From: Alkalispirochaeta americana
GTDB lineage: Bacteria > Spirochaetota > Spirochaetia > DSM-27196 > Alkalispirochaetaceae
Direction of reading: 5' to 3'
Assembly: GCF_900156105.1 (NCBI RefSeq)
Contig: NZ_FTMS01000006.1
Coordinates: 1-64,000, forward strand
Length of the DNA: 64,000 nt
Positions 1 through 16,466 of the stretch are shown here, in pieces; position 1 is the stretch's first letter; each line of letters starts with the position of its first letter. A program made the translations under genes and the position numbers. The notes below the pieces were generated by a model, which had not been told where the DNA came from, did not search any database, and worked only from the letters and a program-made list of their open reading frames with translations.

Positions 1-116
1 TCCCGCGCGGTGTGCTTCCCCTTCTGGTGCTGCTGTTCTATCCGCGCTTCCCCGCCGCCAAGGCGGACCTGCTCCCGGATCGTCTTCATATGCTGAATCG
101 CTTCTCGGTTTCCCAC
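1..116 (-). CDS. Acyl-CoA carboxylase, carboxyltransferase (beta) subunit, N-terminal fragment
   Basis: Only the first 38 codons are in the window; the gene runs off the left edge. The reading frame from GTG at 116 contains VRLGGGEARIEQQHQKGK, the conserved N-terminal signature of propionyl-CoA/methylmalonyl-CoA/glutaconyl-CoA carboxyltransferase subunits (usually about 510 residues). These proteins move CO2 between biotin and an acyl-CoA. The GTG is chosen because AAGGAG (125-130) lies 8 nt upstream; an in-frame ATG at 89 is an alternative. It is divergent from the transaldolase gene with a shared control region. By context it could act on malonyl-CoA (decarboxylase or transcarboxylase), but the substrate cannot be read from this fragment. 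Confidence 0.75.
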   Translation of the reverse strand, partial: MGNREAIQHMKTIREQVRLGGGEARIEQQHQKGKHTAR

Positions 117-138
117 TGTCTTCACTCCTTGTTTCTCT

Positions 139-167
139 ACGCTACGCCCTCTTTGTTCATATGTCAA
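139..167 (-). promoter_or_regulatory. Promoter of the carboxyltransferase gene
   Basis: Read on the minus strand, TTGACA (167-162), a 17 bp spacer and TAGCGT (144-139) form a sigma-70-type promoter. Transcription would start about 15-20 nt before the Shine-Dalgarno sequence of the gene beginning at 116. Confidence 0.55.
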
Positions 168-169
168 GA

Positions 170-192
170 TTATCAGACAATCAACATCTGAT
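170..192. promoter_or_regulatory. Putative FadR-type operator half-sites
   Basis: TTATCAGACAA (170-180) is followed by TCTGAT (187-192), so ATCAGA and TCTGAT form an inverted repeat with a 9 bp centre, directly upstream of the minus-strand -35 box. The arms match the ATCAGA-TAG-TCTGAT core at iolB (13018-13048), but the centre is 6 bp longer. TTATCAGACAA recurs exactly at 292-302. Confidence 0.4.
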
Positions 193-259: not shown

Positions 260-302
260 TTGACAACGGGGAAATATGATATATAATCCGTTTATCAGAC
301 AA
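260..302 (+). promoter_or_regulatory. Transaldolase operon promoter with operator half-site
   Basis: TTGACA (260-265), 16 bp spacer and TATAAT (282-287) form a near-consensus promoter for the transaldolase gene, leaving a leader of about 125 nt. The half-site TTATCAGACAA (292-302) sits at the expected transcription start, where a bound repressor would block initiation. Confidence 0.65.
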
Positions 303-420
303 ACCAAATGACGGATAACCAGAGGTCCGGTTGCATGCACAACGCCTCTGGCTATTGAATACGAGGCAGCGGCTCAACACCCTGGCTGCCCGAAGATGAA
401 AAATCACGGAGGATGAAACG

Positions 421-1557: not shown

Positions 1558-2940
1558 ATGAGCATAGTACAGGAAAAACTGGCCCGTGCGCGGGCAGCAC
1601 AAAAGCAGATAGAACACTACTCCCAGGAAGAGATCGACGCCCTGGTGGCGGCGGCCGGCTGGGAGATCTACAAAACCGAGAGCGCCGAGGCCTGTGCCCG
1701 CCTTGCCCACGAGGAAACCGGCCTGGGAGTCTATGAAGACAAGCTCCTGAAGCACCAGAAAAAAATTCTGGGAACCCTGCGGGATCTTCACGGGGTAAAG
1801 TCCGTGGGCGTTCTTGAGGAAGATCCCGAAAAAGGTCTGATCAAGATCATCAAACCCGTGGGTGTGGTGGGAGCGTTGATCCCTGTGACCAACCCCACCT
1901 CCTCGGTGGGAGGAAACGGTTTGGCGATCCTGAAAAACCGCAACGCCGTTATCTTTGCTCCCCACCCCAAGGGTAAGGGATGCTCCGGCCTGGCGGCACA
2001 GAAGCTGCGCGACGGAATCCGGAAGGCTGGAGGCCCCGAAGATCTGGTTCAGTGGATCGAGGAGCCCACGGTGGATCTCACTCAGGAGCTGATGGAAGTG
2101 GTTGATCTGGTGGTTGCCACGGGCGGCCCCGGCATGGTGAAAGCCGCCTACTCCAGCGGAACCCCCGCCTACGGCGTGGGCGCAGGAAACGCCGTGGTGA
2201 TCGTTGACGAGACAGCCGACAGAAAAGACGCTGCAAAAAAGATTGCCCTGGGCAAGACCTTTGATAACGCCACGAGTTGCTCCGCCGAGAACTCCCTGGT
2301 GATCGAGTCCTCGATCTACAGCGCCATGGTGGAAGAGCTGAAGCAGCAGGGTGGATACCTTTGCAACGCCGAGGAGAAGGCCAAGCTGAAAGCTGCCATG
2401 TGGCCCGACGGCCACACCCTGAACAGGGCCGTTGTCGCCCAAAGCGCCGGAAAAATCGCGAGTCTCGCCGGGTTCTCCGTTCCCGAGTCAACCCGGTTCA
2501 TTATGGTGGAGGCCGGGAAGGTAGAACCCCAGGAACTCTTCGCCGGGGAGAAGCTCTCGGTGGTGATGACCCTCTGGAAATACAGCGGGTTTCCCCAGGC
2601 GATTCAGTTCGTTCAAGATATCACGGCTTTCTCCGGCTACGGTCACTCCTGCGGTATTCATACCACCCGGGATGACCGCATCATGGAGCTGGGCCTCCAG
2701 GCACCGGTAAGTCGTATCATGGTTCGCCAGGCCCAGAGCGCCGCCAACAGCGGAAACTACGATAACGGCATGCCCTTCTCTCTTACCCTGGGGTGCGGAA
2801 CCTGGGGCGGCAACATGACCACGGAAAATATCGCCTACTGGCATTTCCGGAATGTCACCTGGGTGTCCAAGCCCATTCCCGCTGTTCTCCCCGACGAGGA
2901 GAAAATTTTCGGGAACCATTGGGCAACGCTGGGCCGATAG
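1558..2940 (+). CDS. CoA-acylating aldehyde dehydrogenase (SauS-like)
   Basis: A 460-residue member of the acylating aldehyde dehydrogenase family (AdhE N-terminal domain, EutE/PduP, sulfoacetaldehyde dehydrogenase SauS). Seen: VATGGPGMVKAAYSSG (187-201) with the cofactor-binding loop, and the catalytic cysteine C241 in NATSCSAENS. Such enzymes oxidise an aldehyde with NAD(P)+ and CoA to acyl-CoA. The C-terminal GGNMTTENIAYWHFRN pattern is the part I associate with SauS-type enzymes, whose substrate sulfoacetaldehyde is a close analogue of malonate semialdehyde. It is co-transcribed with the transaldolase and followed by a strong terminator. The inferred role is malonate semialdehyde plus CoA to malonyl-CoA. 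Confidence 0.85.
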   Translation: MSIVQEKLARARAAQKQIEHYSQEEIDALVAAAGWEIYKTESAEACARLAHEETGLGVYEDKLLKHQKKILGTLRDLHGVKSVGVLEEDPEKGLIKIIKPVGVVGALIPVTNPTSSVGGNGLAILKNRNAVIFAPHPKGKGCSGLAAQKLRDGIRKAGGPEDLVQWIEEPTVDLTQELMEVVDLVVATGGPGMVKAAYSSGTPAYGVGAGNAVVIVDETADRKDAAKKIALGKTFDNATSCSAENSLVIESSIYSAMVEELKQQGGYLCNAEEKAKLKAAMWPDGHTLNRAVVAQSAGKIASLAGFSVPESTRFIMVEAGKVEPQELFAGEKLSVVMTLWKYSGFPQAIQFVQDITAFSGYGHSCGIHTTRDDRIMELGLQAPVSRIMVRQAQSAANSGNYDNGMPFSLTLGCGTWGGNMTTENIAYWHFRNVTWVSKPIPAVLPDEEKIFGNHWATLGR

Positions 2941-3033: not shown

Positions 3034-3180
3034 GGCCCTGACCATGGCCTTGACCATGGCCTCGCTCCAGGCGATCTGCGGTGGTCACGGTCAGAATTGT
3101 ATGATAAAGTTTTATCGCGATTAGGTGTTTTGTATTCCTGCCGGCGGTTAATCGCTTACATTGATATTTTGGGGGATCCG

Positions 3181-3912
3181 ATGGATTTGTACTCATCGAC
3201 CGAGAACGCGCATATTTCGCAACAAACCGTTGTTGCCCAGGTTATGGCTCACCTCAAAGAAGTTATCGCCTCGGGAAAATACCGCCCCGGCGACCGCCTC
3301 CCCACGGAAAAAGAACTCTCCGAGATGCTCGGTGTGGGGCGATCTTCTGTTCGTGAGGCCATTAAGGTTTTTCAGCATCTTGGTGTTGTGGAGTCCCGGG
3401 CAGCAAAAGGGACATTTCTCCGGGAACGGGCAAACATCTCATCCGAAGCGATCGCCTGGGCTCTGCTCCTGGGGGATGATGACCTTCAGGACGTGATGGA
3501 ACTGCGCGAAGCGATCGAAAGCGTCTGCTTTGCCCGCCTCACCCAGGAGCTTGCCAGCGGTTCCGATTCAGCCCGACAGGTGCTGAAAGCACTCCAGGAG
3601 CAAGTCTCCGTGATGGAACAGGCGGCGGCCACCAACCAGGTACAGGATCTGGTGGAGGCCGACTACCGTTTTCACGGCCACATTGTCCGGGCAGGCGGAA
3701 ACCAGCTCTTCCGGGCGCTCTACTCCAGTCTCCACGCCTTTCTGAGTGAGGAGATCCGTTCGTCCTATACCGAGATGTCAGAACTTTCCGAGGCAGCCCG
3801 GGATCACGCCGAGATCGTGGAGGTCATCCAGAAGCGATCTCCCGAGCAATCCTGCCTGCGCCACCGGGAGCATTTCGAGCGCACCCGGAAGCTGCTCAAA
3901 CTGAACGTATAG
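3181..3912 (+). CDS. GntR/FadR-family transcriptional regulator (paralogue 1)
   Basis: A 243-residue regulator: N-terminal winged helix (about residues 15-80, recognition-helix region GVGRSSVREAIKVFQHLGV) and C-terminal all-helical FCD ligand domain with metal-site residues in EADYRFH, RDHAEI and HREHFE. The sequence closely resembles the second regulator at 9125-9955, and the recognition helices are nearly identical, so both probably bind the same operator. GGGGGA precedes the ATG. It sits downstream of the transaldolase operon terminator and converges with the phosphodiesterase gene, overlapping it by 17 nt. FCD proteins usually sense small organic acids, which fits an inositol-derived acid such as a keto-gluconate. 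Target and ligand are inferred. Confidence 0.9.
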   Translation: MDLYSSTENAHISQQTVVAQVMAHLKEVIASGKYRPGDRLPTEKELSEMLGVGRSSVREAIKVFQHLGVVESRAAKGTFLRERANISSEAIAWALLLGDDDLQDVMELREAIESVCFARLTQELASGSDSARQVLKALQEQVSVMEQAAATNQVQDLVEADYRFHGHIVRAGGNQLFRALYSSLHAFLSEEIRSSYTEMSELSEAARDHAEIVEVIQKRSPEQSCLRHREHFERTRKLLKLNV

Positions 3913-4678
3913 CGGCAGAAGCGCACCCCTCCTGTTCCGGCAGGAGTCCCTGAAGCCCCATGAGCTTCCGGGGCTCCATGGTGGTGATCGAGGAAACCCC
4001 CTGGCCGATTAAATCCTCCATGGTTTCCTTGTCGTTCACTGTCCAGACAGAAACCGGGAGAAACCGCCGGTGGGCGTAGTCCACCAGAAAGGGCTGGCAC
4101 AGGCGGTGGTGAAGATTGATCCCGCAGCATCCTGCTTCGCGGGCGCTCCGGCAGGTTAATCGAGCGTAGGCCTCGTAATCCTCCATGGCTAGGGGAATGT
4201 CCTGGAGCTCCGAGGCGTTGAGCATCACCTGCAACCGGGGGAACTCCCCGGTGATCATCCTTGCCCACTCGGCGTTGCACCCCGTAAAGACCACACCATC
4301 CTCCAGGCTCCACGACGAGAGGAGCCTCCGAATATAGCCAAGGCTTCCGGGGTCTTTCAGATCAAGATTGACAAGACAGGACTTACCCTTTGCCAGAGAA
4401 AAGATCTCTTCCAGAGAAGGAAGCAACTCTGGCTCATCAGCCATGAAGGCCCGGGCCTCTTCGTAGGTGCAATCGGCAATGGAACGCCGATCGCCCCGGG
4501 AGTTGGTCAGCTCTTCATCGTGATGGAGCACGGGTATCCCGTCGCGACTGCTCCTGATGTCCACTTCTATCAGGTCAGCCCCCGCTTCTATTCCGGCAAG
4601 AAAGGACTCCGCCGTGTTTGCCCTGGTGTTCTCGCACCCTGTGTGGGCTGTAACCAGTACCCGCTGCGAATATTTCAT
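3896..4678 (-). CDS. Glycerophosphodiester phosphodiesterase (cytoplasmic)
   Basis: A 260-residue GDPD-fold protein without a signal peptide. It keeps the family pattern: catalytic histidine in AHTGCENTRANT near the start, EVDIRSSRDGIPVLHHDEEL, and VSVWTVNDKETMEDLIGQGV near the end. HTG replaces the usual HRG, so the arginine at that place is missing. GDPDs cut glycerophosphodiesters into sn-glycerol-3-phosphate and an alcohol. It is the last gene of an operon with an ABC importer, in the same order as ugpQ in ugpBAECQ. Inside an inositol island the natural substrate guess is glycerophosphoinositol, yielding inositol. Start chosen at ATG 4678 (GTGAGG 9 nt upstream); GTG 4693 is an alternative. 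Confidence 0.85.
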   Translation of the reverse strand: MKYSQRVLVTAHTGCENTRANTAESFLAGIEAGADLIEVDIRSSRDGIPVLHHDEELTNSRGDRRSIADCTYEEARAFMADEPELLPSLEEIFSLAKGKSCLVNLDLKDPGSLGYIRRLLSSWSLEDGVVFTGCNAEWARMITGEFPRLQVMLNASELQDIPLAMEDYEAYARLTCRSAREAGCCGINLHHRLCQPFLVDYAHRRFLPVSVWTVNDKETMEDLIGQGVSSITTMEPRKLMGLQGLLPEQEGCASAAIRSV

Positions 4679-4689
4679 AGAGACTGACC

Positions 4690-5523
4690 TCACTTCAAGC
4701 TCATGGAGAAACCCTGGGTTAGCTGCCGGTACACCAGGTTCGAAAAAACAAGAATCGGCAGCGACGCCATCAAACCAATCGCCATGAGTTCACCCCACTG
4801 GGTTGAGTACTCCCCGATATACCGCGAGATCACCACCGGCAGAGTGAGAAGCCGGGGCGTGCGTACAAAGAGCAGGGCAAAGAGAAACTCGTTCCAGGCG
4901 AGAATAAGACTGAAAATCGACGTGGCAATCACACCGGTTCTCACCAGGGGAGCCACAATAGAGACCAGAACCCTCCCCGGAGAAGCTCCATCGATCATCG
5001 CCGCTTCCTCGAACTCCAGGGGCAGGGACTTCAGAAAGCCGTAGATAATCCATATGGAGTAGGGAAGCGTATAGATCTGGAAGGCAATGATCAGCCCCGC
5101 CAGGGTGTTGATCAACCGCACCTGGTTAAAAACGGTAAAGAGCGGAACCGCCAGAACGATGGGAGGCAATATTCGAACCACCAGGACCCAGATCAGGAAG
5201 AGCCGGTTGATCTTCAGGGGAAACCTGAACCGCACCAGGGCGTAGGAAGCGAGAAAGGCCAGGACGATCGACGAAGCGGTTGAAGAGACTGCCACAACCA
5301 CGGTGTTGTAGAAGTTCCGCCAGATCCCGGCAGAAAAGACGTTTCCGTAATTCTGCAGGGTCGGTGTTTGGGGGAAAAACGTGGGAATGGGGCTGATCAC
5401 CTCCCGAGGGGTCTTCAGGGAGGTGTTCACCATCCAGTAGATTGGGGCAACAATGACTGCCAGAAAGGCCACCAGAGTGATCCAGAAGAGCGCTCTTTGC
5501 AGGTAGAAACGAAATCGGTACAT
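4690..5523 (-). CDS. ABC sugar transporter permease, MalG/UgpE type
   Basis: A 277-residue inner-membrane permease with about six transmembrane segments and the EAA loop EFEEAAMIDGASPGRVLVSI that docks to the ATPase. It forms the channel with the permease encoded just upstream; only one base separates the two genes. Start at ATG 5523 because GGGAGG lies 9 nt upstream; ATG 5532 sits directly on that sequence. No ATPase gene is in the operon. Substrate is unknown; the neighbouring GDPD suggests a glycerophosphodiester or polyol. Confidence 0.93.
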   Translation of the reverse strand: MYRFRFYLQRALFWITLVAFLAVIVAPIYWMVNTSLKTPREVISPIPTFFPQTPTLQNYGNVFSAGIWRNFYNTVVVAVSSTASSIVLAFLASYALVRFRFPLKINRLFLIWVLVVRILPPIVLAVPLFTVFNQVRLINTLAGLIIAFQIYTLPYSIWIIYGFLKSLPLEFEEAAMIDGASPGRVLVSIVAPLVRTGVIATSIFSLILAWNEFLFALLFVRTPRLLTLPVVISRYIGEYSTQWGELMAIGLMASLPILVFSNLVYRQLTQGFSMSLK

Positions 5524-5524
5524 C

Positions 5525-6403
5525 TCAGTCATCCTCCCGGAGCAGTTTTCGGACATAAAAGAGGGCAAGAAAGGAAACAAAGAAGAGCGTGATCACCGAC
5601 GCTGCGCTGGCCCGCCCAAAGTTGAAAAAGGAGAAGCCCTCGCGGTAGATAAAGAAGGAGAGGGTCTGGGTCGCGTTGGCGGGCCCTCCGCCGGTTAATG
5701 CGTAGACCTTGTCAAAGAGCCGGAAGGTGTCCAGGGTTCTGAGCATGAGCACCAGCAGGATCTGTCCCGAAAGAATGGGCAGCGTTACCTTGAAAGCGAT
5801 CTGGGAGGACCGGGCTCCGTCTATCCGAGCCGCCTCGAAGAGCTCCCTGGGAATGGAGCTCATGCCAGCCTGGATGATCAGGAAGGCAAAAGGGGTCCAT
5901 TGCCAGATGTCCACCAGAATGATGGAAAAGAGGGCCATCTGTCTGTCCGTGAGCCATCCCACGGGGGCAACCCCCAGAATCCCCAAAAGATAGTTAAAGA
6001 GCCCTATCTCGTAGTGATAAAAGATCTGCCAGATAGCGCAGATCACCATGGTGGAGATGATCATGGGGAAGATGATCACCAGCGAAGCTGCCCGTTTTCC
6101 CCGGAAATCCCGGTAGAGCAAAAACGCAATAAGCACTCCCAGAAAAACTTCCAGAAAACTGGCCCCAAAGGTGAAAAGCACCGTATTCTGGAAGGATCGC
6201 TGAAAGAGTTCCTCGCCGATTATCCGGCTGTAATTTTCAAATCCGATAAACAGTCGCGATCCCGTGATAAAATCATACTCGTAGAAAGAATCGCGCAGAA
6301 TTGTCCCGATTGGGTAGGTTGTCAAAAAAAGAATGATGATCAACGCCGGCGCAAAAATTGCGTAGAAAAAAGCGTTGTGGGCCAACCGATCTGTGTTTCT
6401 CAT
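5525..6403 (-). CDS. ABC sugar transporter permease, MalF/UgpA type
   Basis: A 292-residue membrane protein with six predicted transmembrane helices and an EAA loop, RELFEAARIDGARSSQIAFK, about 90 residues from the C-terminus. It pairs with the MalG-type permease directly downstream. A 142-nt gap with a strong hairpin (6490-6532) separates it from the binding-protein gene. Confidence 0.93.
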   Translation of the reverse strand: MRNTDRLAHNAFFYAIFAPALIIILFLTTYPIGTILRDSFYEYDFITGSRLFIGFENYSRIIGEELFQRSFQNTVLFTFGASFLEVFLGVLIAFLLYRDFRGKRAASLVIIFPMIISTMVICAIWQIFYHYEIGLFNYLLGILGVAPVGWLTDRQMALFSIILVDIWQWTPFAFLIIQAGMSSIPRELFEAARIDGARSSQIAFKVTLPILSGQILLVLMLRTLDTFRLFDKVYALTGGGPANATQTLSFFIYREGFSFFNFGRASAASVITLFFVSFLALFYVRKLLREDD

Positions 6404-6489
6404 GGTCTGTCTATTCCTTTGGAAGTTCCTTTGGACGCCCCGGGAATCCTCTATGAAGGACCCGGTCGGGCTCCCCCGAAGAGGGGAGA

Positions 6490-6532
6490 GACCCCGGAGA
6501 TCCTTTCCCGAGAAAGGAGACGCTCCGGGGTC
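6490..6532 (-). terminator. Intercistronic hairpin between binding protein and permeases
   Basis: GACCCCGGAG (6490-6499) pairs with CTCCGGGGTC (6523-6532), enclosing a second stem CCTTTC/GAAAGG. There is no T-run. Such structures between binding-protein and permease genes often stabilise the upstream mRNA or attenuate read-through so that binding protein exceeds permease; that role here is inferred. Confidence 0.55.
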
Positions 6533-6545
6533 AGGTATGAAAACG

Positions 6546-7805
6546 TTACCGCAGAATCTCCGTTACCCGCCGCTGGATCTGCTGCAGAGCCTCTTCGGCA
6601 GAAACCTCGCCCACCAGCGCACGCTGGAGATAATCACCGAAGGTGGTCTCTATCTGGGGCCAGTAGTCGGTTCTGGGACGTACGGATCCTGAGATCTGTC
6701 CCGCCAGCTGAGCCGGATACCAGGGATATTTTTCCTGGAGTCGGGAAATATGATGCACACTATGACGTGTGGGAGGAATCCCTGTCTCATCAGCCATCAT
6801 TTCCTGCACGGGCGCACTGGTGAGATACTGGATAAAATCAAAGGCAGCATCGATGTTCCGGGAATCCCGGGGGATGCCCACCATCCAGGCACCGATCATG
6901 GACGAAGAGCCCTTGACCTGACCCGGATGAGCTGCGATCGAGACTTGTCCCACCACGTTCGACTGCTCGGGGTTTTCCAGATCTCCGATCCAGCCCGGCC
7001 AGACCTCGATAGCCATGGCACCGGCACCGGACATAAGCGCATCACGCACCTGGGTGGACTGGTAGGCGGTAACTCCGGCGGGAGCGTACTCGGCCAGCTC
7101 CAGAAAGAACTCCACCGCTGCCAGCGCTTCCGGCGTGTCAAAGGCAGGCTTTCCATCGACCAGAATATCGGCACCAAAGGCCCAGAAGAGCGGCAAGAAC
7201 CCTGTCACGATGGGGTTGCCCTGGACACCGCGAAAGAGCACCGGCACGGTGTCGTCACCCTCGGCGGCAACACGCTGCGCGATATCAAGAACATCACTCC
7301 AGGTATCGATCGCGCTGTAGCCATAGCGTGCAGCAATATCGTGACGATAGGCAAAGAGAGCTACGTTTCCTACGTGAGGCAGGGCGTAGAGATCACCCGA
7401 GGGATGGGGATAGCGTCCCACGTTCACCATGTTCTCCACCAGATCGGGGTCGATCTCCAGACCCTTTTCCCGGTAGAGGGTGTCCAGATTCACAAGCCAT
7501 CCTGCCTCCTGAATTCTGGGGAGGAAGGGGTCATCCACCAAAAGAACGTCGAACGCACCCGTTCCACCCCGAAGCTCGATAACAGTTTGCTCCATGAGCT
7601 CCGCCCCGGAGAGCTTGAGAATTTCAAAGCGCACATTCGGGTTCTGGCGGGTATACTCCTGCGTAGCAAGCTCCATGGCCGTTCCAAAGGCCCCGTCACG
7701 ACCGGCAATAGTCAGGGTGGTAACCCCTTCTTCCCTCTTTCCGCCGGCAAAAACCGTTGCTGCACAAAGCATCAGCACAACCAGCACCAAACACATCCGT
7801 TTCAT
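6546..7805 (-). CDS. ABC transporter extracellular solute-binding protein, family 1
   Basis: A 419-residue periplasmic binding protein. The N-terminus is a cleavable signal peptide (basic MKR, hydrophobic LVLVVLMLCAATVFA, then GGKREE); no lipobox cysteine is placed for lipidation. The body has the family-1 pattern with TQEYTRQNPNVRFEI and GAGAMAIEVWPGW. It would capture the substrate in the periplasm for the two permeases downstream. ATG 7805 is preferred (GGAGG 8 nt upstream); GTG 7808 is possible. Its promoter region holds an inverted repeat (7838-7852) facing a divergent regulator gene. Confidence 0.93.
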   Translation of the reverse strand: MKRMCLVLVVLMLCAATVFAGGKREEGVTTLTIAGRDGAFGTAMELATQEYTRQNPNVRFEILKLSGAELMEQTVIELRGGTGAFDVLLVDDPFLPRIQEAGWLVNLDTLYREKGLEIDPDLVENMVNVGRYPHPSGDLYALPHVGNVALFAYRHDIAARYGYSAIDTWSDVLDIAQRVAAEGDDTVPVLFRGVQGNPIVTGFLPLFWAFGADILVDGKPAFDTPEALAAVEFFLELAEYAPAGVTAYQSTQVRDALMSGAGAMAIEVWPGWIGDLENPEQSNVVGQVSIAAHPGQVKGSSSMIGAWMVGIPRDSRNIDAAFDFIQYLTSAPVQEMMADETGIPPTRHSVHHISRLQEKYPWYPAQLAGQISGSVRPRTDYWPQIETTFGDYLQRALVGEVSAEEALQQIQRRVTEILR

Positions 7806-7837
7806 CACAGATACCTCCTCATGGATTGTTCCATATT

Positions 7838-7852
7838 GTAGGAAAATCCTAC
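7838..7852. promoter_or_regulatory. Operator-like inverted repeat upstream of the importer operon
   Basis: GTAGGA (7838-7843), AAA, TCCTAC (7847-7852) is a perfect 6-3-6 inverted repeat. Read on the minus strand it abuts a TACAAT -10-like box. It is a good candidate site for the divergently encoded DeoR-like regulator. Confidence 0.5.
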
Positions 7853-7988
7853 CATGACATAGTCAAGAACCCCAGAAAATACTTCCTGATTCTTAATAGC
7901 CTGATTTAGCGATATAACTATTAAACGTATATTAGCTTAATGACTATTTTCTTGCGTAATCCTTCGTATCGTGCTTCAATCTCTACAT

Positions 7989-9038
7989 ATGCGACATCAC
8001 GCTGAAAAGAAACCCCAACGCCTGAAGCGTAAAGAGCTGGTTATGGGTGTCCTCTACCACTTCTCGGAGATCTTTGAATCCAGCGATGCTGAATCGATCT
8101 GGGATATCGCCATTCCCGTGGAGGATCTCTGCACCCATCTGAAAGACCGGTTCGGGGTTGAGTACAGCAGTAATCAGTGGGTATATACGCAACTGCGACG
8201 CTACGAGGACGAGATCGGAGCTCGGCTTTTTGAAAAGAAGGCCCGCCGCGATGTGAATACCTTCCGGGTTTCCCTCCACCGGGAGATGCTGGAGTTCATT
8301 CAAAAGCAACACCTCTACGTCCCTCAGAAGATCAAAGCCGCCCGGGGGGCTTACGACAAAATCCTCTCGACAATCCCTGCTCCGCAGGATACCTCCACAG
8401 GGGCCTCCTCCCGTGATATCTCGGTGCTTCTCGGGGCCGGGAGCACGGTGTATCATCTGGCAAGTATCTTCATCGACCATCAGCACAGCACCGACCGGAC
8501 CTTCTCGCTGCACACCCATAATGCAGGGATTTTGCCCATGCTCCTGGGGCAGCACGTGGATCACCGAAAACTTTCAGTGGTAACCGCAGGTGGCGTTCTT
8601 GATCCGGTAACCCGCACAATTCTGGGGGACCCCGAGAAATCTTTCACCAGGAAGAGCTTTGATTTTATCGTGCAAGGCACCTCCCAGGTCTGGGGAGAGG
8701 ATCTGTTTATCGAATCCCGTCAGGAGCAGCGGATCAAGCGGGCCATTCTTAACGATTTTGAGGGATGCAAAATCCTGGTGCTCACCAAACACGAGTTTCA
8801 GGACCATCCCATGCCCGGGGTGGAGCCCTACGGGAAGATCAGCGATTACGAGTACGTGATCGTGCCCCGCAGTATCCAGGATCACCCTCCAAAAAAACAC
8901 GATCGGTGCTTTGAAGAATCTCTGGGCAAACTTGAACCGGAGATCATGAACTGGAATTACTGCATCCTCAAGGTCAAAAAGGATCACGAAAAAAACAGGG
9001 AGACAGCGGCAGGAACCGGGCTCCATGAAAAGACGTAA
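7989..9038 (+). CDS. Regulator with DeoR-type sensor domain and atypical N-terminus
   Basis: A 349-residue protein. The C-terminal two-thirds resembles the DeoR/GlpR sensor domain: LLGAGSTVYHLASIF, then VVTAGGVLDPVTRTILGD, and a late ILVLTKHEF segment. This is the phosphosugar-sensing fold related to ribose-5-phosphate isomerase. The first 130 residues do not show the usual short DeoR helix-turn-helix; they are longer, with WVYTQLRRYEDEIGARLFE suggesting a different winged-helix module. It is divergent from the ABC importer operon, its likely target. The start is uncertain: ATG 7989 fits a leaderless promoter (TTGCGT 7952-7957, 17 bp, TTCAAT 7975-7980); GTG 7971 and ATG 8043 are alternatives. 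Confidence 0.7.
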   Translation: MRHHAEKKPQRLKRKELVMGVLYHFSEIFESSDAESIWDIAIPVEDLCTHLKDRFGVEYSSNQWVYTQLRRYEDEIGARLFEKKARRDVNTFRVSLHREMLEFIQKQHLYVPQKIKAARGAYDKILSTIPAPQDTSTGASSRDISVLLGAGSTVYHLASIFIDHQHSTDRTFSLHTHNAGILPMLLGQHVDHRKLSVVTAGGVLDPVTRTILGDPEKSFTRKSFDFIVQGTSQVWGEDLFIESRQEQRIKRAILNDFEGCKILVLTKHEFQDHPMPGVEPYGKISDYEYVIVPRSIQDHPPKKHDRCFEESLGKLEPEIMNWNYCILKVKKDHEKNRETAAGTGLHEKT

Positions 9039-9083
9039 AATTTAGAATGACAAATGTCCAAACCCTGCTGTACAATAATATGT

Positions 9084-9103
9084 TCAGATAGTCTGATTAT
9101 AAT
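9084..9103 (+). promoter_or_regulatory. Autoregulatory operator and -10 box of the second fadR-type gene
   Basis: TCAGA (9084-9088), TAG, TCTGA (9092-9096) repeats the core of the iolB operator exactly. TATAAT (9098-9103) follows at once, so a bound protein would cover the promoter of the regulator gene starting at 9125. No good -35 box is visible. Confidence 0.65.
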
Positions 9104-9124
9104 ATACTTACGCGCGGAGGCCCT

Positions 9125-9955
9125 ATGAACCATTATCTTGAAGAAGAAACCCCCATCGCGCAACGAACAGTAGTTGCGCAAGTCATGGCTCGGCTCAAAG
9201 ACCTGATCGCCTCCGGACATTATCGGCCCGGCACCCGCATTCCCACAGAGAAGGATCTTGCCCAGATGTTCGGGGTGGGCCGGTCTTCAATCCGGGAGGC
9301 GATCAAGGTATTCCAGCACCTGGGGGTCCTGGAATCCCGCACCGCCAAGGGGACCTATGTCCGGGGGCGAGCCCACGTCTCGTCCGAGGCAATAACCTGG
9401 GCGTTGCTCCTGGGAGAGGACGATCTTCGCGATGTTCTGGAACTGCGCGAGGTGATAGAAAACATCTGCTTCAGCCGCTTGGGCGAATCCCTGACCAAGG
9501 CCGATCCAGGGGCGCTAAAAACCCTGGAGATGCTGGATCAGCAGATCCTCATCATGGAAGAGGCCGCAGAACACCACGAGATCAGCCGCATGGTGGAGGC
9601 CGACTACCGGTTCCACGAGCTGATTGTGGAGGCCGGCGGAAACAGGCTCTTCTGTGCCCTCTATGCAAGTCTCCACGCCTTCATGAGCGAGGAGATCCGG
9701 ACCTCCTACATCAAGATGCAGGATCTTCACGAGGTTGCCCTGGATCATGCCGATATCGTGCGAACCCTTCGCCTGGAAGCTCCGGCAATAGCCCTCCGCC
9801 GCCATGGCCGCCACTTCAGAAGAATCAGAAAACTCCTGCACCTTCCTTCGACTGCCCCGGGAGGTTCCGCAGACCGGGCGCTTCCCGAGGCGACTGCACC
9901 CGAGGTAACTGCACCCGAGGCAGCGTCCCTGGAACCAACGGCTCTGGCAACATAA
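9125..9955 (+). CDS. GntR/FadR-family transcriptional regulator (paralogue 2)
   Basis: A 276-residue paralogue of the regulator at 3181-3912. The winged helix (recognition region GVGRSSIREAIKVFQHLGV) and FCD domain (EADYRFHELIVEAGGNRLF) align almost end to end with paralogue 1. It differs by a C-terminal tail of about 35 residues rich in Ala, Pro and Glu with a repeated EATAPEV-type unit. GGAGG lies 4 nt before ATG. Its own promoter carries the TCAGA-TAG-TCTGA palindrome, also found at the divergently placed iolB-iolD operon, so it probably represses both. Inducer unknown; an inositol-pathway acid is plausible. Confidence 0.92.
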   Translation: MNHYLEEETPIAQRTVVAQVMARLKDLIASGHYRPGTRIPTEKDLAQMFGVGRSSIREAIKVFQHLGVLESRTAKGTYVRGRAHVSSEAITWALLLGEDDLRDVLELREVIENICFSRLGESLTKADPGALKTLEMLDQQILIMEEAAEHHEISRMVEADYRFHELIVEAGGNRLFCALYASLHAFMSEEIRTSYIKMQDLHEVALDHADIVRTLRLEAPAIALRRHGRHFRRIRKLLHLPSTAPGGSADRALPEATAPEVTAPEAASLEPTALAT

Positions 9956-9980
9956 AGCCCCGACTGACCTCTCCGGCAAT

Positions 9981-10050
9981 CTGTCCAGGAGGCTCGGGCC
10001 AGGTGTCCCTGTCCAGGCGGCTCTGTCCAGGCAGCTCTGTCCAGGCGGCC
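9981..10050. repeat. 14-bp tandem repeat after the regulator gene
   Basis: Three contiguous units of CTGTCCAGGCGGCT (10009-10022, 10023-10036, 10037-10050) with one or two changes, plus a separated copy at 9981-9994. Non-coding, between converging genes. Confidence 0.85.
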
Positions 10051-10090
10051 AAAAAAAACAGCGCCCCGGCCCGAGAGAGGCGGAGCGCTG
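10051..10090 (-). terminator. Terminator of the iolB-iolD transcript
   Basis: On the minus strand CAGCGC (10090-10085) and GCGCTG (10064-10059) close a GC-rich stem followed by eight T residues (10058-10051), just beyond the iolD stop codon. Confidence 0.8.
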
Positions 10091-10129
10091 CATTCCCATG
10101 GCCCCGGGATACACCCGGGGGGCAGGAAT

Positions 10130-11995
10130 CTAGAAGAGTCGAACCTGCTTCAGGTGATCCTTCAGATCCTTGTGCGCAGCCTGAACGGTGGGACTCGCTG
10201 AAACTTCCGGAACCCCGACACGCCACCAGCTCTCGTACCCGTGAGTCATGGACTTCTCCGTGACTTTCACATCGATCAGAACGGGACCGTTCACCTTTTT
10301 TGATTCAGTCACGGCCTGGCGGAGCTCCTCCAGGGTGCTTACGCGATAGGCTGTAACGCCATATCCCTCGGCAATTTTGGCGTAGTCCACCTCCAGGTAG
10401 TCACCCAGGAGCTTTCCCTCCGGCCCCTGCCGCTTGCGCCACTCGTTGGCATAGCTGGAAATTCCCTGATTGGTCTGCAGGTTGTCGATTACCTGGAATC
10501 CGTGGTTATCAAAGAGCACCACCGTAAAGGGGACCTGCTCCTGCACAGCCGAGAGAAGCTCGCTGTGGAGCATGACAAACCCTCCATCTCCTACCAGGGA
10601 GTACACCCTCTGGTTCGGGAGCGCCAGCTGCGCACCGTAGGCTGCGTTGATCTCGTAGCCCATGCAGCTGAAGCCGTATTCCATGTGATAGGTATCCCGG
10701 TGACGGCATCGCCAGACCCGCTGCATATCTCCAGGAAGGCTTCCCGAGGCACTCACCACCACGTCCGAGGGATCCAGGAGCTTCTCGTTGAGTTCGCCCA
10801 GAACTCTGGTCTGACTGAGCCCCTGGGGATCTTCCTCGCTGTAGAGGCGGTCCACTTCCGTGGTCCAGGCCTCCCGGGCCTGGCTGACCTCGGTGGTGTA
10901 GGCGCTGCGGTATCGACGATCGCGAAGCTTCTGTGCAACCTGGTTCAGCACCTCCCGGGCATCGCCCACGAAGGACTCGGCGTCCATCTTGAAGGAATCG
11001 AAGGAGTTGATATTGATCGCTGCCACTTTGAGGTCCGGGTTCTGAAAAGCGATCTTGCTGGCCGTGGTGAAGTCCCCCAGGCGGGTTCCGACGGCGATGA
11101 GCAGATCGGCATCGCGGGCGATCACGTTTGCCGCCTCGCCTCCCGTTACACCGATACCGCCAAGGTTCCAGGCGTGATCCCAGGCGAGGGTACCCTTTCC
11201 TGCCTGGGTTTCCCCGAAGGGAAGGCCAAACTCTTCAGCGATCTTCCCGAAGGCCTCGCGGGCCTCGGAGTAGCGAACCCCGCCACCGCAGATCATGAGG
11301 GGTTTCTTGCTGCCTGCAACAAGATCGGTCAGTCGTTCCAGAGCGTTTTCCGGGAGCTGCGGCCGGTTCACCCGATGCACCCGCTTGCGGAAAAAGCTCT
11401 CGGGATAATCGTAGCTTTCAGCCTGGGTGTCCTGGGGGATTCCGATGGTGACAGCGCCGGTCTGGGCAGGGTCTGTGAGAACCCGCATGGCGTGAATGAG
11501 AGAACTCATGAGCTGCTCGGGACGCGATACGCGGTCCCAGAACTTGCTCACCGGTTTGAAGGCGTCGTTGGCGGTAACGTTCAGGTCGAACTCGTTCTCT
11601 ACCTGCTGAAGAACAGGATCGGGCTGGCGGCACGCGTAGGTGTCGCCCGGCAAAAAGAGCACGGGAATGCGGTTTACCGTGGCCGTAGCGGCGGCGGTTA
11701 CCATGTTGAGCGCTCCCGGACCTACCGAACTGGTTACTGCATAGATTTGCCGCCGGTTCTGCTGCTTGGCAAAGCCGATCGCCGCGTGGGCCATGGCCTG
11801 CTCGTTCTTTCCCTGGCGGAAAACCAGATTGTGCTCGGTTTCCACGATGGCTTCGCCTAATCCGACCACGTTTCCGTGCCCGAAAATTCCGAAAATTCCC
11901 TCGACAAACTTGTACTCCTGCCCGTCAGCTTCCAGATACTGGTTATCCAGAAAGCGCAAAAGCGCCTGGGCCATGGTCATGCGAACCGTTTTCAT
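10130..11995 (-). CDS. iolD: 3D-(3,5/4)-trihydroxycyclohexane-1,2-dione hydrolase
   Basis: A 621-residue thiamine-diphosphate enzyme, close to the usual 630-640 of IolD. Early FVEGIFGIFGHGNVVGLGEA and the C-terminal cofactor motif VGDGGFVMLHSELLSAVQE followed by DNHGF are typical of the acetolactate-synthase-like superfamily; NLGGIGVTGGEAAN and YGFSCMGYEINAA fit IolD specifically. It opens the ring of trihydroxycyclohexanedione to give 5-deoxyglucuronate. ATG 11995 is chosen (AAGGAG 6 nt upstream). It follows iolB by 133 nt, in which I see no promoter, and is followed by a terminator. Confidence 0.95.
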   Translation of the reverse strand: MKTVRMTMAQALLRFLDNQYLEADGQEYKFVEGIFGIFGHGNVVGLGEAIVETEHNLVFRQGKNEQAMAHAAIGFAKQQNRRQIYAVTSSVGPGALNMVTAAATATVNRIPVLFLPGDTYACRQPDPVLQQVENEFDLNVTANDAFKPVSKFWDRVSRPEQLMSSLIHAMRVLTDPAQTGAVTIGIPQDTQAESYDYPESFFRKRVHRVNRPQLPENALERLTDLVAGSKKPLMICGGGVRYSEAREAFGKIAEEFGLPFGETQAGKGTLAWDHAWNLGGIGVTGGEAANVIARDADLLIAVGTRLGDFTTASKIAFQNPDLKVAAININSFDSFKMDAESFVGDAREVLNQVAQKLRDRRYRSAYTTEVSQAREAWTTEVDRLYSEEDPQGLSQTRVLGELNEKLLDPSDVVVSASGSLPGDMQRVWRCRHRDTYHMEYGFSCMGYEINAAYGAQLALPNQRVYSLVGDGGFVMLHSELLSAVQEQVPFTVVLFDNHGFQVIDNLQTNQGISSYANEWRKRQGPEGKLLGDYLEVDYAKIAEGYGVTAYRVSTLEELRQAVTESKKVNGPVLIDVKVTEKSMTHGYESWWRVGVPEVSASPTVQAAHKDLKDHLKQVRLF

Positions 11996-12128
11996 CGGCT
12001 TCTCCTTGGGGTATCGTTGAAATAGGGTGTTATTGTCCGTGTGTACCACGTCACCCGTATGTGCCGCATCACTTCTGTGCGGAACCTCTGCCGGTCCTTC
12101 TTCTGCACCGGTTCCTTCTCCCGACTGA

Positions 12129-12974
12129 TCACGATCCCTGGTGATCCATCACCTCTTCAAGGGAGGCATCGGGCCAGATCGGGGCATCTCCATTCATCAC
12201 CCAGGTGTGCTCTTCCTGAAAGATCCGGGAATCCGGCCCAAACCGGTCCTGGGGCAGATGGGGGATCATCCAGATGTAGTACATGGCGTAGCCCGGTGCC
12301 GCCGTCTGCGGATGAGGAACGTTGGAGTCGATCGTGACGGTGTCACCGTTGGTAACGCGATACACCTCGTCGCCCACTTGGGAAAAACCAAACCCCTGGG
12401 TGGGAAAAAACCGGTAGTGGTATACCTCGGGCTGGGCATGGACATGGGGGGGATAGCTGGACCATTTTCCGGGATAGTTGATCACCTCTCCCAGAACCAT
12501 GCCGCTCTCGGGGGCCGTGGCCGCATCGAAGATGGTGCGAACCGTGCGGGTACTGGTATCCTGGAGCGTTCCCTCGCCGAAACGGTCCGAGCGGTATTCC
12601 CCGGGTTGCCAAAGGCGGGGAGCAAAGGCCTTTGTATTGCCCACGGACTGCAGGGCGATCTCGACGCCCTCGGGTCCCGCTGTAAGGGTTGCTTCGGCAC
12701 CGGCGCAGAGATGAAGCGCCGAGGGGTCTTCGTCGAGGAGACTCCGGCGCGTACACTGGCTTGACCGGGCCGCCCCGCCCTCGCTCCAGGCGAAGGTTAC
12801 GGTGCCTGTCATGAGCAGAAAGGCCCGTTCCCGGGGGTCGCTGTTTGTCCAGACTTCTCCGGGAGAGAGCCGCAGGATGGCGAAGTCCATCAGCATATCC
12901 TGATAGGGTCCGTCTTCTGCAATTATGTGATTCATGCCCGCAGATAACCGGGCTCCGCTTTGAATGATTGCCAT
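12129..12974 (-). CDS. iolB: 5-deoxy-glucuronate isomerase
   Basis: A 281-residue double-cupin protein. The metal-binding motif PPHVHAQPEVYHYRF and downstream NVPHPQTAAPGYAMYYIWMI match IolB. It isomerises 5-deoxyglucuronate to 2-deoxy-5-keto-gluconate. AAGGAG lies before ATG 12974. It is the first gene of the iolB-iolD transcript; its -10 box lies inside a perfect 14-3-14 palindrome, so expression is almost surely repressor-controlled. Confidence 0.95.
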   Translation of the reverse strand: MAIIQSGARLSAGMNHIIAEDGPYQDMLMDFAILRLSPGEVWTNSDPRERAFLLMTGTVTFAWSEGGAARSSQCTRRSLLDEDPSALHLCAGAEATLTAGPEGVEIALQSVGNTKAFAPRLWQPGEYRSDRFGEGTLQDTSTRTVRTIFDAATAPESGMVLGEVINYPGKWSSYPPHVHAQPEVYHYRFFPTQGFGFSQVGDEVYRVTNGDTVTIDSNVPHPQTAAPGYAMYYIWMIPHLPQDRFGPDSRIFQEEHTWVMNGDAPIWPDASLEEVMDHQGS

Positions 12975-13017
12975 GGTCTTTGCTCCTTGCTGGTGGTTAC
13001 GCGCCCACACAGGCGCT

Positions 13018-13048
13018 ATGGTAATATCAGATAGTCTGATATTACCAT
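13018..13048. promoter_or_regulatory. iolB operator: perfect 14-3-14 palindrome
   Basis: Arms ATGGTAATATCAGA (13018-13031) and TCTGATATTACCAT (13035-13048) are exact inverse complements around TAG. The core TCAGATAGTCTGA is identical to the site at 9084-9096. It overlaps the minus-strand -10 box (13044-13039). Confidence 0.9.
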
Positions 13049-13066
13049 ATAACCGGCACCAGTCAA
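13039..13066 (-). promoter_or_regulatory. Promoter of iolB-iolD
   Basis: On the minus strand TTGACT (13066-13061), 16 bp, TAATAT (13044-13039). The -10 box is embedded in the palindromic operator. Confidence 0.75.
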
Positions 13067-13208: not shown

Positions 13209-14234
13209 TTAGCGGACCTCGGAGATCTCCACCACCCGCTTCTCTTCCAGGGACTTCTTGGCGGCCATGGCCAGGTACATCGGCTCCAGGCCGTCGATAC
13301 CGACCACGGGCGGAGTGGTTCCTTCGCGCAGAGCCTTCACAAAGGCCTCGGACTCGATCAGGAAGGATTCGTTGTACCGCTCCAGGAAGAACCAGAGGGG
13401 TTTCTCCTTGCGGCTTCCCTCGACACCGGTGATCTCGATGGTGGCAGGAAGGTCGTTTTCGGTGCGGGCCATCCCGGCAGATCCAAAGACCTCAACCCGC
13501 TGATCGTAGCCGTAGACAGCTTTCCGGCTGATGTCGATCACGGCGATCGCTCCGTTCTCGAGCCAGAGGGTCACCACGGCGGTATCGATATCACCGGCCT
13601 TCCCGATTTCGGGATCAACCAGCACAGCACCGGCGGCGGAAACGGCCTTTACCTCGGAACCCGAGAGAAACCGAACCATGTCCAGATCGTGGATCATCAT
13701 GTCCAGGAAGATGCCGCCCGAAACCTTCACGTACTCCGCCGGGGGGGGCTCGGGATCACGGCTGGTTACCTTGATCATATGGAGATCACCCACTTTGTTG
13801 TCGAGAATGGCCTGTTTCACCGCTGCAAAGTTGTGATCAAAGCGGCGGTTAAAGCCGATCTGAAGGGTCACGCCCGCGTTCTTGGCAACTTCCAGAGCGT
13901 TCTTGACCTTTTCCACGTCCAGGTCGATCGGTTTCTCGCAGAAGATGTGCTTTCCTGCTTTTGCAGCATCCACCAGAAAATCGGCGTGGGTGTCGGTGCT
14001 GGAGCAGATGTATACTGCGTCCACCTTGTCGTGGTTCAGAACCTTTGCGGGGTCGGTGTAGCGCTCGGTGATACCCAGCTCATCGAGCCATTCTGTGGCG
14101 CGATCCACGTAGGGGTCTGCTACACACACCACTTCGACTCCCTGGACACGCTGGACCAGGTTTTTTGCGTGGACGTACCCGATCCGTCCTGTTCCAATCA
14201 CACCAATACGAATAGAATCTTTTTTTTCTGCCAT
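13209..14234 (-). CDS. iolG: myo-Inositol 2-dehydrogenase
   Basis: A 341-residue GFO/IDH/MocA oxidoreductase. Seen: N-terminal Rossmann motif GVIGTGRIGYVHAKNL, the catalytic-lysine motif CEKPIDLD, and SRDPEPPPAEYVKVSGGIF with FLDMMIHDLDM, characteristic of IolG. It oxidises myo-inositol to scyllo-inosose with NAD+. ATG 14234 follows AAGGAAGG. The gene lies 28 nt after the lacI-type gene and probably shares its transcript, so it would be controlled through the LacI operator upstream of that gene. Confidence 0.93.
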   Translation of the reverse strand: MAEKKDSIRIGVIGTGRIGYVHAKNLVQRVQGVEVVCVADPYVDRATEWLDELGITERYTDPAKVLNHDKVDAVYICSSTDTHADFLVDAAKAGKHIFCEKPIDLDVEKVKNALEVAKNAGVTLQIGFNRRFDHNFAAVKQAILDNKVGDLHMIKVTSRDPEPPPAEYVKVSGGIFLDMMIHDLDMVRFLSGSEVKAVSAAGAVLVDPEIGKAGDIDTAVVTLWLENGAIAVIDISRKAVYGYDQRVEVFGSAGMARTENDLPATIEITGVEGSRKEKPLWFFLERYNESFLIESEAFVKALREGTTPPVVGIDGLEPMYLAMAAKKSLEEKRVVEISEVR

Positions 14235-14262
14235 GTTTTCCTTCCTTTCGGCTTTATGGGTC

Positions 14263-15297
14263 TCATCGGCGTTCGCAGCCGGGGCTGCTTTCCCGAAGGA
14301 TGAGCTGGGGCTGAAGCGCAACGTGTCGGGGCTGGTGGGCCCGGCCCCGACTTTTATCTTCGATCATCTCGATCAGACGCTCGCAGGTCATGAAGGCAAC
14401 CTCTTCCGAGGGTTGCCGTACCGTGGTGAGCGAGGGGTGCAGGCTCTCTGCCAGAGGGATGTCGTCGTAGCCCACCACGGGAAGATCCCGGGGAACCGAG
14501 ACCCCTTCAACGGTCAGGGCCTGCATTGCGCCGATCGCCATAAGATCGTTCATGGCAAAGAGGGCGTCGCACCGGTTTAGTTCTGCCTGGTGGGCCAGAA
14601 CCAGACGAAACCCTCCCTTGATCGAGGGTTCGCCCGGGATGATCCGAATCTCCGCAGACGGTTCTGCCAGGGCCAGGGCTTTCTCCATTCCCCGCAGGCG
14701 CTGCTCGAACTCGAGCCCCAGGGCCGGATCCCCCAGGACGACGATCTTCCTGTGGCCACGGTTCAAAAAATGATCCCCCACCAGCATGCCGCCCTTCTCG
14801 TGATCCACATAGACCCAGTCCACGTCGGGACGGGGCTCGGGAGGCGGATAGTGAGAGAAGACGTAGGAGGTGCGCGTCTCCTGAAGGTAGTGCTCGGTCT
14901 CCCGCTCCAGGCAGGAGCCCATGATAATGAGACCGTCCACCTTTTTCCGCCGCACTATGCGCGTCACGTTGTCACTCCCGTCGAAACGGTTGCGCGCAAA
15001 CCCCACGATGAGGTCGAGGCCGGCCCGTTCCAGGGCGCGCCGCAGGGCATTGTGGAGACCGCTATGGTAGAGTTGCATATGAAACTCGTCGTACTCGTCG
15101 GGAAGGATGACCCCGATGGTGCCCACGCTTTGAGTGACCATGCCCCGGGCCCCCGAGTTGAACTCGAACCCCCGGTCTTCGGCGATCGCCTTGATCCTGC
15201 GCCTGGTTGACTCCGCAACCAGGGGGCTGTCGTTGAGACTGCGGGAGACCGTGGAAACGCTGACCCGGGCAATCCTGGCGATATCCTTGATCGTCAC
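14263..15297 (-). CDS. LacI-family transcriptional regulator
   Basis: A 344-residue LacI/GalR regulator: N-terminal helix-turn-helix and hinge TIKDIARIARVSVSTVSRSL, then a periplasmic-binding-like sensor domain (VGTIGVILPDEYDEF, VVGYDDIPLAESLHPSLTTV). The GTG at 15297 is the only start consistent with the conserved N-terminus; GGAGCAGAG precedes it. It is upstream of iolG and divergent from iolE, with a LacI-type palindrome between (15401-15438), so it likely represses iolE and its own operon until inositol or a derivative binds. Confidence 0.93.
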   Translation of the reverse strand: MTIKDIARIARVSVSTVSRSLNDSPLVAESTRRRIKAIAEDRGFEFNSGARGMVTQSVGTIGVILPDEYDEFHMQLYHSGLHNALRRALERAGLDLIVGFARNRFDGSDNVTRIVRRKKVDGLIIMGSCLERETEHYLQETRTSYVFSHYPPPEPRPDVDWVYVDHEKGGMLVGDHFLNRGHRKIVVLGDPALGLEFEQRLRGMEKALALAEPSAEIRIIPGEPSIKGGFRLVLAHQAELNRCDALFAMNDLMAIGAMQALTVEGVSVPRDLPVVGYDDIPLAESLHPSLTTVRQPSEEVAFMTCERLIEMIEDKSRGRAHQPRHVALQPQLILRESSPGCERR

Positions 15298-15400: not shown

Positions 15401-15438
15401 CAAGGAATTTTTTGCAAACGTTTCCAAAAAATTCCTTG
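15401..15438. promoter_or_regulatory. LacI-type operator between lacI-iolG and iolE
   Basis: CAAGGAATTTTTTG and CAAAAAATTCCTTG flank the centre CAAACGTTTC. The 38 bp element is palindromic except for one base pair and contains the AAACGTTT core typical of LacI/CcpA-family operators. Its right edge meets the -35 box of the iolE promoter. Confidence 0.88.
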
Positions 15439-15464: not shown

Positions 15465-15566
15465 GCTCCCAGACGCTTCGGCTGTGCTCCAGGATTGCAA
15501 GATCCCCGGCCACCGGAGCGCGTGGCCACGCCACCCGCAACAGGACATCACGGAAGGAGACCAGAG

Positions 15567-16466
15567 ATGATTAAAGTAGGAAATGCCCCCTGCTCATGGG
15601 GCGTACTGGAGTTCGAGCTTGAGGGAGAGACCGCAGGATACGAGCAGTTTCTCAAGGAACTCAAGGATACAGGATACGAAGGAACAGAGCTGGGTGACTG
15701 GGGATATATGCCCACCGACCCTGCAAAGCTTCGGGAAGAGCTGACCAGCCGGGAGATCGACCTGGTAGGCGCCTTCGTGCCGGTGGCGCTCTGCGACGAG
15801 AACGCTCACGCCGAGGGGATCGAGGTGGGAATCAAAACGGCAAAGCTCATGGCCGATGCCGGTTTCAAGGATGCCTTTATCGTTCTGGCCGACAACAATG
15901 GCTCCGTTCCCGCCCGAACCAAGGCCGCTGGCCGGGTAACACCCGATCTGCTTCTCCCCGAGGAGGGCTGGAAGAACGTACGCGCCGGAGTTGAGTCCTT
16001 TGCACGCCAGGTGCGGGACAAGACAGGGCTGCGCACGGTTTTTCATCATCACTGCGCAGGTTATGTGGAAACCCCCGGTGAGATCGAACGCCTTCTGATG
16101 GATACTCCCGCAGACGCCCTGGGTCTGGTCCTTGATATGGGCCACTACCGCTTCGGTGGCGGCTATCCCGAGGCGGCAATCAAGCTCTTCTGGGACCGCA
16201 TCCAGCACATCCATTACAAGGACTGCTCCGCAGCAGTTGCCGCTGCATCCCGGGAAAAGGGATGGGACTACTTCGAGTCGGTCCAGAACGGTGTGTTTTG
16301 CGAACTCGGCAAGGGCGTAGTGGATTTTGAGGCGATCACCCAGGAGATCCGCCGCCGCAATTACGAGGGCTGGATTGTTGTGGAGCAGGACGTTCTCCCC
16401 GGCATGGGAAGCCCCGTTGACTGCGCCCGGCGCAACCGGGAATACCTGAAGAGCCTCGGTCTCTAA
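15567..16466 (+). CDS. iolE: myo-Inosose-2 dehydratase-like protein
   Basis: A 299-residue TIM-barrel protein of the xylose isomerase/AP-endonuclease-2 superfamily. The opening VGNAPCSWGVLEFE, the metal-ligand segments GTELGDWGYMP, LGLVLDMGHYRFGGG, HIHYKDC and VEQDV, and GVFCELGKGVVDF match IolE. It dehydrates scyllo-inosose to the trihydroxycyclohexanedione used by IolD. GGAAGGAGA lies before the ATG. It is a single-gene transcript ending in a strong terminator. Inosose isomerase (IolI/IolH-like) is the main alternative, but the length and C-terminal pattern favour IolE. Confidence 0.88.
   Translation: MIKVGNAPCSWGVLEFELEGETAGYEQFLKELKDTGYEGTELGDWGYMPTDPAKLREELTSREIDLVGAFVPVALCDENAHAEGIEVGIKTAKLMADAGFKDAFIVLADNNGSVPARTKAAGRVTPDLLLPEEGWKNVRAGVESFARQVRDKTGLRTVFHHHCAGYVETPGEIERLLMDTPADALGLVLDMGHYRFGGGYPEAAIKLFWDRIQHIHYKDCSAAVAAASREKGWDYFESVQNGVFCELGKGVVDFEAITQEIRRRNYEGWIVVEQDVLPGMGSPVDCARRNREYLKSLGL

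Follow-up and report, generated by a model that had tools for sequence, protein, structure and literature searches.

The window analysed here, the first 64,000 nucleotides of a contig (C6) of Alkalispirochaeta americana, carries representatives of the canonical inositol genes iolG, iolD, iolB, and iolE, a pair of paralogous GntR/FadR-type regulator genes (fadR1 and fadR2, 59% identical), and, at its left edge, genes for a transaldolase, a CoA-acylating aldehyde dehydrogenase, and the 5′ end of a Na+-pumping decarboxylase (Table 1). Both FadR proteins match the GntR winged-helix (PF00392) and FCD (PF07729) domain models above cut-off, and the two proteins keep the same recognition region, GVGRSS(I/V)REA. 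An Asp and three His residues of the FCD domain serve as metal ligands; in our orthologue alignment (A1), D161, H165, and H209 are invariant and H231 nearly so. The pair forms a new orthologue group, found almost only in Spirochaetes, within a known regulator class, and we found no description of this group in the literature searched.

Table 1 Features of the window (operators are predicted; bits for operators refer to the position weight matrix).
Feature	Position	Strand	Remarks
Carboxyltransferase subunit (5′ end), Na+-pumping acyl-CoA decarboxylase	1-118	-	remainder on contig C44 with biotin carrier and OAD beta
FadR operator, divergent carboxyltransferase (mmdA-like) promoter	164-182	-	second-best match in the genome
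FadR operator, tal promoter	286-304	-	best match in the genome; rank 1 in window
tal, transaldolase/FSA family	421-1500	+	359 aa
CoA-acylating aldehyde dehydrogenase (aldh)	1558-2940	+	SauS-like, below the SauS cut-off
Weak candidate operator, fadR1 promoter	3095-3113	+	ATTGTATGATAA; 13.2 bits, about 0.5 expected per 64 kb; conserved in A. alkalica
fadR1	3181-3912	+	
Glycerophosphodiester phosphodiesterase (GDPD) and ABC transporter	3896-7808		
Perfect palindrome GTAGGA-AAA-TCCTAC	7838-7852		upstream of ABC transporter binding-protein gene
355-aa protein	7971-9038		
FadR operator, fadR2 promoter	9079-9105	+	core 9084-9096; 19.8 bits at 9087-9105; rank 3 in window; conserved in A. alkalica
fadR2	9125-9955	+	FCD domain
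iolD	10130-11995	-	906 bits, cut-off 715
iolB	12129-12974	-	passes Pfam KduI/IolB; 84 bits, NCBIfam cut-off 205; assigned in context
FadR operator over iolB -10	13017-13049	-	20.2 and 19.4 bits; rank 2 in window
iolG	13209-14321	-	above cut-off; overlaps lacI
lacI	14263-15297		
36-bp dyad between lacI and iolE	15402-15437		near-perfect
iolE-like gene	15495-16466	+	193 bits, NCBIfam cut-off 290; assigned in context

Several other elements lie within the same locus. A GDPD and an ABC transporter could provide inositol from glycerophosphoinositol, but their genes showed no FadR operator; the perfect palindrome upstream of the transporter's binding-protein gene is not conserved in A. alkalica. The 355-aa protein encoded before fadR2, and next to it in A. 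alkalica too, resembles the DeoR C-terminal sensor domain only weakly, and no helix-turn-helix is listed for it.

An earlier note on this DNA had described an identical 13-bp core at two promoters, and this identity is confirmed: TCAGATAGTCTGA occurs on the forward strand at 9084-9096 in the fadR2 promoter and at 13027-13039 in the iolB promoter, the latter two bases higher than the 13025-13037 given previously. The iolB copy does sit inside a perfect palindrome, TATGGTAATATCAGA-TAG-TCTGATATTACCATA, although its extent is 33 bp (15-3-15) and not 14-3-14. The genome scan proposed in the same note, for which many random matches would have spoken against an operator, returned only these two exact copies from the whole assembly of 3,309,052 bases (reversed control, 0). 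TCAGANNNTCTGA is present at four places genome-wide (control, 2), half of them the fadR2 and iolB sites and the others C7:6611 and C15:9097. Within the window, searching for the 13-mer with three mismatches gave an unremarkable 17 matches for 10.9 expected, and a genome scan for TATCAGACAATA with up to two mismatches gave 107 against 90 in the control; this lack of an overall excess means that only a longer model is useful.

Such a model was derived from relatives, using 27 upstream regions of FadR orthologues and leaving out both this genome and A. alkalica (DSM 8900). An unbiased motif search returned TATTGTCTGATATTATGAT with a log-likelihood of 185, compared with 60-67 in six dinucleotide-shuffled sets. 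Many sites at orthologue promoters are more symmetric, for example AATCATAATGTCTGACATTATGATT in L098, and place the centre of symmetry on TCTGA; a flanking box, TATGA or TCATA and sometimes TCAGA, lies 8 bp to one or both sides of it. The conserved operator appears to be centred on TCWGA; its core resembles TTGTCTGAYAA (GT-N3-A[C/T]), and a further box stands 8 bp out. Among the orthologue loci, no site is seen in L080 or L099, and that of L036 is weak. Outside the Spirochaetes, the same operator type occurs in a Clostridia MAG (L100, 3797-3859) together with a FadR relative, a malonate/methylmalonate-semialdehyde dehydrogenase (MMSDH), and two tal genes, which suggests transfer of the module beyond that phylum.

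We then scanned the window by cmsearch, filters off, with a model built from 33 foreign sites. The six best matches fell at the tal (282-308), decarboxylase (167-184), iolB (both strands, 13021-13044), fadR2 (9091-9106), and, in sixth place, fadR1 (3096-3107) promoters, and the next match outside these promoters had E = 9.4. A 19-position weight matrix gave the same picture, with the fadR1 site near chance. Across the whole genome, the tal, decarboxylase, and iolB promoters were matches 1, 2, and 5, respectively; two further matches lie at C5:168893, near PTS genes, and at C28:5888, where a PfkB-like kinase and an ABC sugar transporter are encoded nearby (names assigned by eye). When each locus was scored with its own sites left out, 25 of 29 loci (1.6 expected) had their best site no more than 300 bp upstream of a gene of the fadR, tal, aldh, MMSDH, or iol type; some of these loci are closely related, so they are not fully independent. 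Since a model made without this genome or A. alkalica places both the fadR2 and the iolB site among the top matches of the window, these predicted sites exceed chance.

Promoter-like sequences coincide with three of the sites. The tal operator directly follows TTGACA-16-TATAAT (260-287), the fadR2 site begins a few bases past the -10 of ATGACA-18-TACAAT (9047-9076), and at iolB the -10 of TTGACT-16-TAATAT (minus strand, 13066-13039) overlaps the operator, as the earlier note had proposed. These are the three top-listed of seven promoter matches in 16.5 kb, a count not above chance (5.8 in shuffles). At tal and fadR2 the predicted operator thus starts at the -10 or immediately behind it, and at iolB it covers the -10, a placement that would fit repression and autoregulation. 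The position of the decarboxylase operator is conserved in A. alkalica and at L034:12717. On this evidence, and given the recognition region shared by both paralogues and the divergent placement of fadR and iol genes in L093 and L089, the palindromes are very probably operators of the twin FadR-type proteins.

What the regulator recognizes within these palindromes could be read in another way, with the 13-bp dyad itself, TCAGA-N3-TCTGA around a TAG centre, bound by one dimer seated between two boxes. TCAGA-N3-TCTGA occurs six times in 427 kb of related loci, compared with 0-1 for seven other spacers, and the fadR promoter of L036 shows such a dyad without a TTGT core (GAAG-C-TCAGA-ACG-TCTGA-A-CTTC). 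Most orthologous promoters, however, have the other register (TTGTCTGATATTATGAT; AATCATAATGTCTGACATTATGATT) without the 13-mer, and the dyad is likewise absent from the window's tal and decarboxylase operators. Its over-representation indicates that the dyad is meaningful, but it does not look like the common unit of the operator, and we regard it as an unlikely bound unit. The 13-mer is better parsed as an outer box TCAGA and a central box TCTGA, offset by the customary 8 bp and in inverted overlap; the same box pairing is seen in TCAGATTGTCTGA at the tal gene of L042 and at position 14082 of L096. At iolB both registers score equally well, which allows the palindrome to be taken as a pair of overlapping inverted operators. 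Of the original proposal of FadR-type operators, the motif match, the overlap or abutment with promoters, and the presence of inositol genes in the regulon hold up, while the TAG-centred dyad as a general unit does not.

A mainly RNA-level role for the iolB palindrome, as a terminator or processing hairpin between iolG and iolB, is very improbable. The hairpin is predicted to be stable (-30.3 kcal/mol, z -4.8, in the window; -24.4, z -6.2, in A. alkalica), and the palindrome might also work as a hairpin at the RNA or DNA level. Yet it is no intrinsic terminator, as no T-run follows it, and a transcript starting near 13032 would begin inside the palindrome and could not form the hairpin. The fadR2 copy, moreover, gives no notable hairpin (z -0.9), and in A. 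alkalica only 7-3-7 of the palindrome survives, with the operator score unimpaired. Binding by another regulator, either LacI or the 355-aa protein, deserves equally little credence: both genes are nearby, but the motif goes with fadR orthologues from genome to genome, in fetched loci that have little other than fadR in common, and LacI has a likely site of its own. That the repeat is a functionless coincidence, as its shortness and the count of mismatched copies might allow, is refuted in practice by the held-out window scan, together with the conservation in A. alkalica and the two exact genomic copies, and retains a negligible probability.

Under the operator reading, a FadR dimer would probably block RNA polymerase by occupying the -10/+1 region at the promoters of fadR2, iolB-iolD, tal-aldh, and the Na+-pump decarboxylase operon. 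The recognition unit would be a TCWGA-centred GT-N3-A(C/T) site accompanied by another box at a distance of 8 bp, the two boxes facing each other at fadR2 and iolB to yield TCAGA-TAG-TCTGA, and both paralogues may read the same site. Release would follow binding of a sugar-acid intermediate of inositol breakdown to the FCD domain, most likely unphosphorylated 2-deoxy-5-keto-gluconate (DKG).

The inositol regulon supposed in the earlier note is in part redrawn by these matches. The iolB-iolD unit belongs to it, but no FadR operator was found at iolG or iolE in the window, and more promoters are involved than the two described, as the predicted regulon also takes in tal-aldh, the Na+-pump decarboxylase, and, probably, fadR1. 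Between lacI and iolE, the 36-bp dyad AAGGAATTTTTTGCAAACGTTTCCAAAAAATTCCTT looks like a LacI-type operator that probably controls iolG and iolE. The inositol genes thus seem to be split between two regulators, one FadR-type and one LacI. A. alkalica has a separate feature that is absent from the window, CGGATGCC-type repeats arrayed in tandem between its iolG and iolB genes (L033, about 6040-6140).

As a marker, the predicted operator links the inositol genes with three further enzymes: a transaldolase-like protein, a CoA-acylating aldehyde dehydrogenase, and a Na+-pumping malonyl/methylmalonyl-CoA decarboxylase. In other genomes, fadR is divergent from tal-iolG-iolB-iolD-iolE-iolG (L093) and from tal-iolG-iolB (L089), placing tal inside iol operons. 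The mmdA-like carboxyltransferase 5′ end is found at the edges of two contigs, C6 (window positions 1-131) and C10 (1-131), which suggests two near-identical copies of the decarboxylase with different promoters; among the reported genome matches, the operator is present only at the promoter of the C6 copy. In genome G002 (L034), the orthologous carboxyltransferase gene comes first in an operon whose products are mmdA-like, biotin carrier, and OAD beta (Na+ pump) subunits. In Tal the Schiff-base Lys139 is kept (NVKMPVT aligned to MIKIPAT), and the protein matches Corynebacterium/Neisseria-type transaldolases better than it does the 218-aa BmSF-TAL. Assignment of tal and aldh as known sulfoquinovose transaldolase genes was rejected on the weak BmSF-TAL match, the sub-threshold SauS score, and the location of tal in iol operons.

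Neither a clear IolC (best match 110 bits, cut-off 300) nor a clear IolA, the MMSDH of the pathway (291 bits, cut-off 448.5), was found in the genome, the assembly being 95.6% complete; for IolJ, Fba-type models do not separate it from Fba. Elsewhere, the operator lies directly upstream of malonate-semialdehyde dehydrogenase genes in L081/L039 (with tal behind), L045, and L100, and in L084 an MMSDH above cut-off (500 bits) comes right after tal. Members of this dehydrogenase family are encoded at L084:11988-13466, L081:1652-3085, L045:8465-9928, and L100:2281-3738. Lying beside tal or under a FadR operator, these genes would replace the SauS-like dehydrogenase of Alkalispirochaeta.

An operator in front of malonate-semialdehyde dehydrogenase genes suggests that DKG is split by the transaldolase. 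DKG has the ketose geometry that transaldolases cut, and the C3 product would be malonate semialdehyde; from the chemistry, Tal would move the dihydroxyacetone half of DKG to glyceraldehyde-3-phosphate and free this product. Malonate semialdehyde is the carboxyl analogue of sulfoacetaldehyde and so fits the SauS-like dehydrogenase, which would convert it to malonyl-CoA, and the operator-controlled decarboxylase copy would yield acetyl-CoA with conservation of energy. We give an even chance to the proposal that the operator marks an undescribed inositol catabolism in which transaldolase cleavage of DKG stands in for IolC/IolJ and leads into this malonyl-CoA route, all under control of the FadR-type pair. 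The tal-containing iol operons, the operator ahead of malonate-semialdehyde dehydrogenase genes, the MMSDH following tal in L084, and the retained Lys139 speak for it; against it, among 247 genomes sampled from the phylum, tal (at least 49% identity) occurs in 5, iolD in 9, and both in 2, and L084 and L086 lack iolD in the fetched stretch. No relevant paper on inositol and transaldolase was found in the literature searched. The genes linked by the operator suggest that alkaliphilic bacteria may break down inositol by a variant route that conserves energy, and the analysis offers a defined operator and a testable regulator for the FadR-type group.

IolR of Bacillus and Salmonella, a DeoR/RpiR-type protein, represses inositol genes and responds to DKG-phosphate. 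The system proposed here would likewise repress inositol genes with a pathway intermediate as inducer, but it differs in protein family and operators, and with no clear IolC a phosphorylated inducer is unlikely. Closer in kind are operators of the FadR subfamily (PdhR, LldR, GlcC, ExuR type), which follow a GT-N3-AC pattern with an extra half-site 7-12 nt from the centre (PMC4494728); the taxa listed in that survey do not include Spirochaetes, and its text does not mention inositol. The spirochaete operators are similarly AT-rich, appear to share the GT-N3-AC core logic, lie upstream of the regulator gene, and carry the extra half-site, which is frequent but not universal in the subfamily, as a second TCWGA/TATGA-type box 8 bp out. 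Unlike those operators, the spirochaete core is asymmetric and often GT-N3-AT: the palindromic GT-N3-AC core is complete in L042, L045, L094, L097, and L098, and most sites in the window have one half degenerate (AT for AC). A further difference is seen at iolB and fadR2, where the extra box equals the core in strength and forms with it an inverted pair that overlaps. GntR1 and GntR2 of Corynebacterium glutamicum are a redundant paralogous FadR-subfamily pair acting on gluconate and ptsG genes (PMC2230225); here, too, two such paralogues would preside over a sugar-acid pathway with sites near TNGTNNNACNA, in a different phylum and on inositol genes instead of gluconate and ptsG genes. For the catabolic proposal the nearest relative is the Sulfo-TAL pathway with its 6-deoxy-6-sulfofructose transaldolase (PMC11659671, PMC12890257): in both, a transaldolase would act on a six-carbon ketose with an acidic end group and companion enzymes would take the short aldehyde, the context here being inositol and malonate semialdehyde.
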